From assembly GCA_029860345.1 (NCBI GenBank), contig JAOUBJ010000001.1, positions 383,089 through 447,088 on the forward strand: a DNA stretch of 64,000 nt, in the 5' to 3' direction. Shown in pieces: positions 16,419 to 19,142 of the stretch. The notes below the pieces were generated by a model, which made no database searches, was not told where the DNA came from, and saw nothing but the letters and a program-made list of their open reading frames with translations. The position numbers were made by a program, and so were the translations under genes. The stretch is from Candidatus Zixiibacteriota bacterium (GTDB lineage Bacteria; Zixibacteria; MSB-5A5; GN15; FEB-12). Each line of letters starts with the position of its first letter. Within the stretch, counting starts at the first letter, position 1.

Positions 16419-17488
16419 TGATGATTGCCATGGGTGGGTCCAATCACACCACCAAGTGGGCCACGGCCATGAGGGATGTCGGCCACGAAGTCATGCTGGT
16501 AACTTTTTATCCACCTACGCCGATCGAGGGGGTCGATATCCGCCACCTGAAATGCCGCACCCGTCCGGGCATGTTGCTTGAGATCGGGCGCGTGCGCAGG
16601 TTGGCCCAGGAGTTCCGTCCCGCTATCGTGCACGCCCACTACGCCAGCAGTTGCGGCTTCGTCGCCGTGCGCGTAGGAGTCCGGCCGCTAGTGCTTTCGG
16701 TCTGGGGGGATGACATTATAGAATTCCCGCACAGGTCACCTCTCCACCGATGGATAGTGAAGCGGGCGATTATCGGCTCAGACTTTGTCAGCGCCACCAG
16801 CCACATGCTGGCCGAGGAAACAGAACGACTGGTTGGCGGCGCGGTAAAGCCGCGCGTGATTCCGTTCGGCGTGGATTTGAACCGGTTCACTTTCTCGGAA
16901 CGACCCTCGCGGTCGACCGTTCACATCGGCACGGTACGTTGGTTGACGAAAAAGTACGGCCTGGAATACCTTATCCGCGCCTTTGCCCGACTTGCCGCCA
17001 CTCGTGACAACCTGAAGCTGACAATCATCGGGTGGGGACCACTTCGGCCGGAGCTGGAAGGGTTGGCAGGTTCGCTGGGTATTGGAGATCGGGTTACTTT
17101 TACGGGTCGTCTGCCCAACGATGAAGTGGCTCGATGTTTCGAGAGCTTCGATCTTTTTGTCATGCCCTCGGTCAGCCGGGGCGAAACTTTCGGCGTGGCC
17201 GCGGTCGAGGCGATGGCTTCGGGATTGCCCGTGGTGGCTTCGGATATCGGCGGCCTGCCTGAGGTGGTGGCCGACGGCCTGACCGGACGGCTGGCGCCGC
17301 CGGGCGACGTGGAAAGACTGACCGCCGCGCTGGAACACTATGTTGACTCCGAGGAAACTCGGCGGCGGGATGGTCGACTGGGACGCGAGCGGGTGGAAAA
17401 ACTCTTTGACTGGAAACAAAATGTTCAGATGATGTCTGCGTTCTACGCTGAAATCCTGGCCGATCCGCGATGGAGTCTCAAACCATAG
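16409..17488 (+). CDS. Glycosyltransferase family 4
   Basis: Retaining GT-B glycosyltransferase that adds a sugar to a lipid-linked glycan on the cytoplasmic face. The start is ATG 16409 (MRLMMIAMGGSNHTTKWA, 359 aa), behind CAGGA and overlapping the flippase by 10 bases. The frame from 16370 lacks support. N-terminal acceptor domain with VHAHYASSCGFVA; the donor domain has IGTVRWLTKKYGLEYLIRAF, the G-x-G-P-L-R segment, and PSVSRGETFGVAAVEAMASGLPVVASDIGG, with the E-x7-E motif binding the nucleotide sugar. Last gene of the operon; terminator-like structures follow. Donor and acceptor cannot be told from sequence. Confidence 0.9.
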   Translation: MRLMMIAMGGSNHTTKWATAMRDVGHEVMLVTFYPPTPIEGVDIRHLKCRTRPGMLLEIGRVRRLAQEFRPAIVHAHYASSCGFVAVRVGVRPLVLSVWGDDIIEFPHRSPLHRWIVKRAIIGSDFVSATSHMLAEETERLVGGAVKPRVIPFGVDLNRFTFSERPSRSTVHIGTVRWLTKKYGLEYLIRAFARLAATRDNLKLTIIGWGPLRPELEGLAGSLGIGDRVTFTGRLPNDEVARCFESFDLFVMPSVSRGETFGVAAVEAMASGLPVVASDIGGLPEVVADGLTGRLAPPGDVERLTAALEHYVDSEETRRRDGRLGRERVEKLFDWKQNVQMMSAFYAEILADPRWSLKP

Positions 17489-17515
17489 GGCATGTTGATA
17501 AACCTGTGTTCTGTT

Positions 17516-17559
17516 GTGTCGGGTCTTGATCCCGCCCCAGCGGGAGTGTGACCCGACAC
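17516..17559. repeat. Variable-tip hairpin, copy 1
   Basis: Basal stem GTGTCGGGTC/GACCCGACAC, internal loop TTGAT/AGTGT, apical stem CCCGC/GCGGG with loop CCCA. Related copies at 18956 and 19041 keep the base but change the tip. Confidence 0.75.
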
Positions 17560-17576
17560 CGATACATCGGTTTTTT
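17559..17576 (+). terminator. Candidate terminator of the wecB operon
   Basis: CCGA-TACA-TCGG followed directly by TTTTTT, 70 bases past the glycosyltransferase stop. The stem is only four base pairs, but it is stacked on the preceding 44-nt hairpin, which may help. Confidence 0.45.
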
Positions 17577-17657
17577 GCGCTTCGCGTACTGGTGTGCCGC
17601 GTGGTGAAACCGGAGAGAGCCGGCTTGACCGGCCGGCGGGTCACACGAATACCGGTG

Positions 17658-17724
17658 CTGTCAGGTGACTCGCCTGACAGCCAATAGGCTGGATAGCAGG
17701 TGTCGGGCGGGGTCGCCCAACACC
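17658..17724. repeat. Twin-hairpin cassette, copy B
   Basis: A perfect 8-bp hairpin CTGTCAGG/CCTGACAG (17658-17680), then 18 bases, then the same 26-base GGTGT...ACACC hairpin as copy A (17699-17724). Same order and orientation as copy A at 13529. Confidence 0.75.
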
Positions 17725-17794
17725 ACAGGACCCACCGCAACAGGCTGGAGGACTTTGTCAACACTCCCCAATAGCCGGGCGGCGCACTGGTTGA

Positions 17795-17812
17795 ATTATA
17801 CTTGACTTGACC
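17795..17812 (+). promoter_or_regulatory. Candidate -10 region of the membrane-protein gene
   Basis: ATTATACTTGACTTGACC includes TATACT and lies 24 bases before the ATG at 17837. It matches 16 of 18 bases with the site in front of wecB. Confidence 0.3.
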
Positions 17813-17836
17813 ATTCCCCCGACCAAAATTGACGAC

Positions 17837-18946
17837 ATGAAACGCCGTTACCATTTTGACTTTCGTGACATTCTCTGGGCGCCGGCGCGCGCCCTCTCGG
17901 CCAAGAAGATTCTGGTCATGACCCTGGCCCTCTGTCTGGCTATCATCTGCTATGACCTGTTCACCTATTTGGCCCTGGCCATCGCCGGCGAGGGACCGAA
18001 CTATGTTTTCTCGACCGACGGTTTCTTTCCCTTTCAGGTTTTTGCCTTGGGCAGCACTTTCGCCTGGCTGGTTTATGGAATCGGCGTAATCCTGGCGCTG
18101 TTGGCCCTGATGATGGGTTTCACGGCGGTGGCAGCTTTCAACATCGAAGAAGCTCGCGGCAACCGTTTTTTGCACACCCGGCAGGCGCTCAGATTTGCAT
18201 GGCAAAGGCTGCCGCAACTGTTCCTGACCGAACTGGCTCTGGCGCTTTTTGTAGCCTTCATTGTCCTGCTATTTTTTCTGTTCGGATTGATAACGAGGCT
18301 GCCGGTAGTTGGTGAATGGTTTTACGCAATCTTCTTTACACTTCCCGCGTTCATCATTGCCATCCTCACCGTCTTTATCATTGTCGTGTTCCAGGCCTCA
18401 TGGGTCCTTACCCCGGCTGTGGTGGCGGCTGATCGGGTGCGCGAGACGTTCACGGCCATTCTTGAAACGTTCTCGACATTGATAAGGCAGCCGGTACGAT
18501 GGTTATTGTACACCGGCTACTCGCTGGTGGCGGCCAAACTGTGCAGTTTCGTTTATGCCTATTTCTGCTACCGGTCGGTACAGTTTATCGGCTGGGCAGC
18601 TGGGTTGGGCGGCGGGCGACAAACCACCGACCTGATCAAATCGGGACTGTCACACCTCCCGGCCACATCCGACACGGTGCAGGAGACGTTCAACATCTTT
18701 CCCGGCATTGACTGGGGCATCTCGATTGGGCATTGGGCACGCGGCGGTGGTGGGGGGGATACGGTCGGTTACGTCATGGCCTTGATGCTCTTTTTGATTT
18801 TCGCGTCGATCATCGGCTACTTCCTTTCGATTATCGCTACCGGGCAGGCGCGGGCGTATATCGTGATCCGCTATCTGAAAGACAACTACGACCTGACCGC
18901 CGAGCCGCCTTTGTTCTCAGAAGAAGAGCCGGTCACAGATAAATAG
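17837..18946 (+). CDS. Multi-pass membrane protein of unknown function
   Basis: Not recognised. From ATG 17837 it has 369 aa (a TTG at 17807 would add 10). A basic N-terminus (MKRRYHFDFRDILWAPARAL) precedes about seven to eight hydrophobic helices: near residues 26-50, 75-105, 140-165, 175-200, 230-255 and 320-350. A cytoplasmic-looking, Arg-rich segment, EEARGNRFLHTRQALRFAWQRLPQ, lies in the middle. A Gly-rich run (RGGGGGDT) lies before the last helix. The tail is acidic (FSEEEPVTDK). The alternating helix-plus-amphipathic layout recalls glycerophosphoryl- or DUF4013-type membrane proteins, but I cannot assign a family. It stands alone, with palindromes on both sides. Confidence 0.75.
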   Translation: MKRRYHFDFRDILWAPARALSAKKILVMTLALCLAIICYDLFTYLALAIAGEGPNYVFSTDGFFPFQVFALGSTFAWLVYGIGVILALLALMMGFTAVAAFNIEEARGNRFLHTRQALRFAWQRLPQLFLTELALALFVAFIVLLFFLFGLITRLPVVGEWFYAIFFTLPAFIIAILTVFIIVVFQASWVLTPAVVAADRVRETFTAILETFSTLIRQPVRWLLYTGYSLVAAKLCSFVYAYFCYRSVQFIGWAAGLGGGRQTTDLIKSGLSHLPATSDTVQETFNIFPGIDWGISIGHWARGGGGGDTVGYVMALMLFLIFASIIGYFLSIIATGQARAYIVIRYLKDNYDLTAEPPLFSEEEPVTDK

Positions 18947-18955
18947 AATGAACGT

Positions 18956-19084
18956 CTGTCAGGTCACACTCCGCCTTCGGCGGATCAAGACCCGACAGAA
19001 CATTTACGCACTTGACAGAACATGGGAATCGTTGCGTGTTCTGTCGGGTCTTGGTTTTGGCCGGCCAAAATCGTGACCTGACAG
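18956..19084. repeat. 129-nt composite palindrome (variable-tip hairpins, copies 2 and 3)
   Basis: Copy 2 (18956-18998) has basal stem CTGTCAGGTC/GACCCGACAG and tip CCGCC-TTC-GGCGG. Copy 3 (19041-19084) has base CTGTCGGGTC/GACCTGACAG and tip TTTTGGCC/GGCCAAAA. The whole also folds end to end: 18956-18967 pairs with 19073-19084, and 18987-19002 pairs with 19037-19052. It can form two hairpins or one long cruciform. Copy 2 is inverted relative to copy 1. Confidence 0.8.
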
Positions 19085-19142
19085 AGATTCTCACAATCTA
19101 TAAGGCTCCATTTGCTTTCGAATTCCGCTTGCAATTCATTCC

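Follow-up and report, generated by a model that had tools for sequence, protein, structure and literature searches.

The closest described system is the E. coli-type combination of REP elements, BIMEs or REPINs and the transposase TnpA_REP (group 2 / subclass 2.2). Its imperfect hairpins follow a tag on their 5' side and have a stem interrupted by an internal loop. They are spread between genes, form inverted dimers, and also flank, as inverted copies, the RAYT genes, of which there are one or a few (PMC8266576, PMC6006769, PMC2817692). Canonical REP tags are given as GT(A/G)G, and residues W94, Q95, E100, H101 and R104 of E. coli TnpA_REP are named for the GTAG region, in the accessible part of PMC6006769. 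The same part describes TnpA_Y1 subclass 2.6, mostly in Bacteroidetes, and class 3 as having repeats without the GT(A/G)G tag and with weaker 'atypical secondary structures'. As stated in the available text of PMC8266576, known RAYTs bind the REP as single-stranded DNA via the tag and an irregularity of the stem and cut at nearby dinucleotides, and an artificial GTTG tag mutant abolishes cleavage in Stenotrophomonas maltophilia. A natural clade with another tag bears on the way in which RAYTs select repeats and cut sites.

The present study concerns three hairpins in a stretch of 64,000 nt (the window) from a Candidatus Zixiibacteriota genome. It is highly probable that they are REP elements of a Candidatus Zixiibacteriota RAYT system, two forming a tail-to-tail dimer and one lying in a head-to-head REPIN (Table 1). 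The REP/RAYT system itself is of a known kind and shares the E. coli-type traits listed above. Many extragenic palindromes that form hairpins were found, as were two inverted REPs joined as one unit, a RAYT gene flanked by inverted copies (in the own genome, and on both sides at 14 of 22 loci of its clade), and a RAYT with HuH motif, catalytic Tyr and Y1 domain. The departure is the GTT(G/C) tag paired with a residue-replaced RAYT clade. Instead of an unpaired GT(A/G)G such as GTAG at the foot, the tag here is GTT plus a fourth base that is paired; the internal loop is constant, whereas the outer stem drifts through compensatory changes; and the RAYT residues at Q95, E100, H101 and R104 are replaced. 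Repeats near the gene without GT(A/G)G recall subclass 2.6 and class 3, from which the family differs by its strong structure and constant tag; the separation from 2.6 follows the description of that subclass in the accessible part of PMC6006769.

Table 1. Features of the hairpin loci, in window coordinates.
Feature	Position	Strand	Basis or detail
Copy 1 REP hairpin	17516-17559	+	sequence read, genome pattern match, DNA folding
Copy 1 tag GTTG	17513-17516	+	tag G at 17516 is the first paired base
Partner inverted REP of copy 1	17633..17741	-	sequence read, pattern match; similar partner in other copies
Partner REP basal arms and tag	17634-17642 + 17729-17737; tag CAAC 17738-17741		
Two other short hairpins in partner-REP tip	17654..17725	.	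about 17657-17681 and 17699-17725
Head-to-head REP dimer (REPIN), GTTG to CAAC	17513..17741	.	boundary conservation in other copies
281-bp MITE-like element around REPIN	17488..17768	.	ends GGGCATGTTGATAAA and TTTGTCAACACTCCC
Membrane protein, 379 aa	17807-18946		
Copy 2 REP hairpin	18956-18998	-	unit 18956..19001; pattern match, DNA folding
Copy 2 tag GTTC	19001-18998	-	
Copy 3 REP hairpin	19041-19084	+	unit 19038..19084; pattern match, DNA folding
Copy 3 tag GTTC	19038-19041	+	
Copies 2 and 3 as tail-to-tail REP dimer	18956..19084	.	cruciform-capable by folding; gap without motif in relatives

The first-pass annotation had described hairpins at 17516, 18956 and 19041, and their stems, internal loops and tips agree with that description. 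Folded singly as DNA, copies 1, 2 and 3 reach -18.9, -15.7 and -14.5 kcal/mol (z -6.4, -5.4 and -6.1). It had also been proposed that copies 2 and 3 make up a 129-nt palindrome able to extrude a cruciform. The palindrome is real yet imperfect, with perfect inner arms of only 17 nt. The cruciform capacity is supported by folding of the strand 18950-19090 (-46.1 kcal/mol, z -8.6), which gives a long imperfect cruciform with two side hairpins.

The family is not confined to the window. The strict motif TGTCRGGTC...GACCYGACA occurs in 35 copies in the 4.76-Mb genome (reversed-pattern control, 0) and a looser motif in 130 copies (control, 0). Within the order the strict motif is present in 22 of 41 genomes, the own genome included, and the loose motif in 62 of 80, some of the low counts being due to chance. 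In the aligned copies (34 of the 35 own strict copies, L025 being left out by the orientation test) the order is GTT, a paired base that is mostly G or C, basal stem, GGTC, internal loop YTG facing TGTG, and variable tip. The full unit is thus GTT, a covarying basal stem, a fixed internal loop (GGTCYTG / TGTGACC) and a covarying tip. The conserved unit takes in the 5' GTT tag, so the hairpin unit is directional. Covariation was assessed on 55 copies in the fetched DNA of the own genome, the tag and the inner motif being the sole fixed parts of the pattern. Outer stems were paired in 322 of 330 cells as compared to 266 +/- 5 when 3' arms were swapped between copies, which shows that changes in stem and tip are compensated, the tag and the internal loop being kept. 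Over the 11 distinct 5' arms, 64 of 66 positions were paired (46 +/- 3 with swapped arms), and 48 of 52 distinct tips folded better than the mean of their own shuffles. Two outcomes had been named beforehand as counting against the family, namely copies only at this site and tips that do not pair elsewhere; with 35 genome copies and paired tips, neither was observed. The idea of a dispersed family with a conserved base and a variable tip is supported, with the correction that the basal stem is not fixed family-wide, as 11 different 5' arms occur.

Five Y1 transposase genes were found in the own genome, and four of them pass the NCBIfam REP transposase model NF047646. A RAYT at C10:19006-19530 scores 75.4 bits in this model, below the curated cut-off of 80. 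This gene is bounded by two inverted GTTC hairpins, one on each side, and the 5' hairpin (GTTCTGTTGGGTCCTGATTTTGGCTTGCCAAAATTGTGACCCGACAG), which closely resembles copy 3 of the window, terminates about 12 nt upstream of the ATG. The domain of its clade matches Pfam Y1_Tnp above the cut-off, and H74, H76 and Y134 (HuH motif and catalytic Tyr) are invariant in 13 sequences. The clade profile matches one PDB sequence, TnpA_REP 4er8 (E = 6e-12). In the alignment to this E. coli protein W94 is kept and Q95, E100, H101 and R104 are replaced, the E. coli numbering being inferred from a printed alignment. The replaced tag-reading residues fit a changed guide and are no proof of one; RAYTs outside the clade vary at these positions too. 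The change at the Q95 position alone was rejected as a marker of GTT tags, because the non-clade Zixiibacteriota RAYTs L064-L071 also have no Gln there and show no GTT hairpins, and because the clade member L045 retains Gln.

Among the 80 searched genomes of the order, 22 have a close relative of the C10 RAYT, with best matches of at least 118 bits; below this group the scores drop to 86 bits. The stop-free close relatives form one clade with support 100/99 in a tree of 51 sequences. For this tree 51 of 54 rows were kept (L077, L080 and L108, two of them clade members, were dropped for stops), and the input covered the clade loci from the 80-genome search that were free of stops. By a flank script that requires an 8-bp hairpin immediately after a tag, 14 of 22 clade loci have GTT hairpins on both gene sides, as compared to 5 of 66 other RAYTs; for one side or more, the figures are 19 of 22 and 15 of 66. 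The 66 comprise the 4 other RAYTs of the own genome, 8 from the 80-genome search and 54 of 71 non-clade loci (17 omitted). At three clade loci (L054, L058 and L063) the script detected no GTT hairpin. When the inner GGTCYT module was required in addition, 6 of 9 clade loci matched, against 0 of 71 and 0 of 8 non-clade loci. Several clade genes are bounded by both GTTG and GTTC hairpins, e.g. L046, L050, L051 and L053. Among records of at least 50% identity, 7 of 9 are named Zixiibacteriota, Zixibacteria or GN15, one is 'bacterium' and one Ignavibacterium sp.; record QNAF01000384.1 matches the clade locus of G042, a genome in the family of the window.

The copy numbers of the motif follow the clade in part. 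The median is 25 copies in the 22 genomes with a clade RAYT and 3 in the 58 others (Mann-Whitney p = 7e-7, a value that takes no account of their common ancestry). However, 28-56 copies are present in seven genomes that gave no match to a clade RAYT (G001, G003, G005, G006, G053, G058 and G062), and the first four of these belong to the genus of the window. Such genomes may be explained by draft gaps or by loss of the RAYT; as they stand, they count against a strict pairing of RAYT and REP. No motif copy is present in the clade genome G068, whose RAYT is bounded by a GTTC variant. In the GTTC hairpins flanking this gene (L047), GGTGCTAG replaces GGTCYTG, and it is possible that RAYT and REP are changing together there. 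The clade RAYT L055 of G029 is flanked by a short near-perfect palindrome, GTTCCGTCAGGTCCTCAGACCTGACGG, without a tip stem, which is a reduced REP form.

Copy 1 lies in a larger arrangement. Many copies are placed head to head with a closely spaced partner of a different basal stem (GTTGCGGTGGGTC). Both outer inverted repeats, with ends like GGGCTTGTTGAYAAA / GGGCTTGTTGAYAAACCC, are present in 13 of the 35 strict copies, often at 179 bp. A perfect 4-bp target duplication is found in 7 of these 13, and their flank letters agree at 39 of 52 positions as compared to 18.9 +/- 3.5 with swapped flanks (0 of 5000 swaps as high). As a set, these 13 copies resemble MITEs. The element around copy 1 has outer ends with only a partial target duplication (CATA / CAAT), and the G with which this element begins is also the final base of the stop codon upstream. 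These data would suit the view that the GTTG copies exist solely as the interior of a MITE that a DDE-type transposase moves, with no part played by the RAYT. This is nevertheless unlikely. The core repeats also occur without outer ends, unlike a MITE, and the left outer repeat is missing from 16 of the 35 copies (the two GTTC copies of the window included), under a lax test that allowed 5 substitutions in 15. The two GTTC window copies were set aside beforehand from the left-boundary count. In the other 14 copies TTG is present in 14/14 and GTTG in 13/14 (ATTG in the remaining one), and information, which is 1.5-1.85 bits there, does not exceed 0.6 beyond the tag. The right boundary was located in 23 of 35 copies, and in the 8 of these without a left outer repeat conservation ends at CAAC. 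The sharp ends GTTG...CAAC are the layout of a REPIN. The clade RAYT genes bounded by both types of hairpin further argue against a RAYT that is unrelated. It seems that a MITE has taken up some members of the hairpin family.

The hairpins could also be structured RNAs (small RNAs, terminators or stabilisers of mRNA 3' ends) kept for gene regulation. The strong folds and covarying stems would suit such a role, and so would the location of copy 1, 28 nt 3' of a stop codon, and of copy 2, about 10 nt 3' of another. We consider it very improbable. In an Rfam scan of the window only tRNA-Sec was matched, and the hairpins had no match at gathering score. It was observed that 34 of the 35 strict copies lie outside predicted ORFs (one overlaps an ORF); the coding fraction of the window is 92%. 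Gene calls were rough and neighbours could be typed for all but 2 of the 34 intergenic copies. The 32 typed copies comprise 16 tandem, 8 convergent and 8 divergent gaps as compared to 20, 6 and 5 window gaps, so there is no clear bias to gene ends and a general gene-end role is not indicated. The small RNA genes suggested by the first-pass annotation are not supported, and a small RNA or riboswitch reading was rejected for the lack of an Rfam match and of a gene-end bias. Directionality and the sharp end at the tag likewise do not fit a structured RNA. The selenocysteine tRNA gene itself is located at 915-1010 of the window, minus strand.

Comparison with relatives points in the same direction, both sites being empty there. 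The gap between the membrane gene and panC, which holds the dimer, is about 220 nt in the window and about 65 nt in the same-genus genome G002, and the motif is absent from this gap at all 18 further loci, including G002, that have the two genes. The gap between the glycosyltransferase and the membrane gene is about 350 nt as compared to about 80 nt in the same-genus genome G001, the only other locus with this pair, where no hairpins are found. In the same-genus relative L154 the 281-bp element is absent from the corresponding gap. The simplest reading is that the REP elements were inserted in the lineage of the window. The membrane protein matches no Pfam family at E 0.001; of the 80 genomes of the order, 70 have relatives of it, in many cases beside panC. 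The earlier picture of a device built around this gene is not supported, as the hairpins are absent where relatives retain it; regulation of the gene by the hairpins was rejected on this ground and on the lack of a Pfam family. Read as REP elements, seemingly regulatory hairpins are explained away, and no host function has to be invoked for the copies in the window. Chance inverted repeats or an assembly artefact, for which the few copies within the window itself are the only point, have a negligible probability, as chance is ruled out by the motif counts against zero controls and by the spread of the loose motif over the order.

The REP reading rests on a dispersed, directional, GTT-tagged family with covarying stems, a fixed loop and sharp tag ends, on a RAYT clade flanked by like hairpins, and on relatives whose corresponding gene pairs have no such elements between them. 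By analogy with known RAYTs, the clade RAYT would bind the REP hairpin as single-stranded DNA via the GTT tag and the internal loop, and would cut beside it with the HuH/Tyr centre; such cutting would lead to the spread of REP elements. A MITE that has inverted ends and duplicates 4 bp of its target may now be an additional carrier of some GTTG REPINs. The fuller scheme, a separate Zixiibacteriota RAYT lineage with replaced tag-reading residues and a guide code changed from GT(A/G)G to GTT, with fixed-loop recognition and drifting stems, plus capture of REPINs by a DDE-type MITE, is put forward tentatively, as we judge the case for it nearly balanced and leaning slightly against. If true, one sequence would be spread by two unrelated chemistries.

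GTTC and GTTG are absent from the main texts of PMC6006769 and PMC3733652, and likewise PMC2817692; in the accessible part of PMC8266576 GTTC is absent and GTTG appears only as the artificial mutant. That mutation abolishes cleavage in Stenotrophomonas maltophilia, yet GTT is the standing tag here. No paper on REPs in Zixibacteria was among the literature matches listed, and a family tagged with GTT may already have been published elsewhere (subscription papers, supplements).

The clade RAYT shares its genome with four other RAYTs (L037, L038, L039 and L041 of G000), three located among GTAG palindromes and one among GTGG palindromes. These tags were read by eye, and the script detected tags for L037, L038 and L041. 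There seem to be five RAYT systems in this genome, which offers a ready comparison. Another type of repeat is present in the tip of the partner REP of copy 1, where the two short hairpins consist of GCTGTCAGGTGACTCGCCTGACAGC and a GTGTCGGGCG...CGCCCAACAC stem. Hairpins resembling them occur together in L007, L009, L019 and L028, and these are perhaps the REPs of another RAYT.
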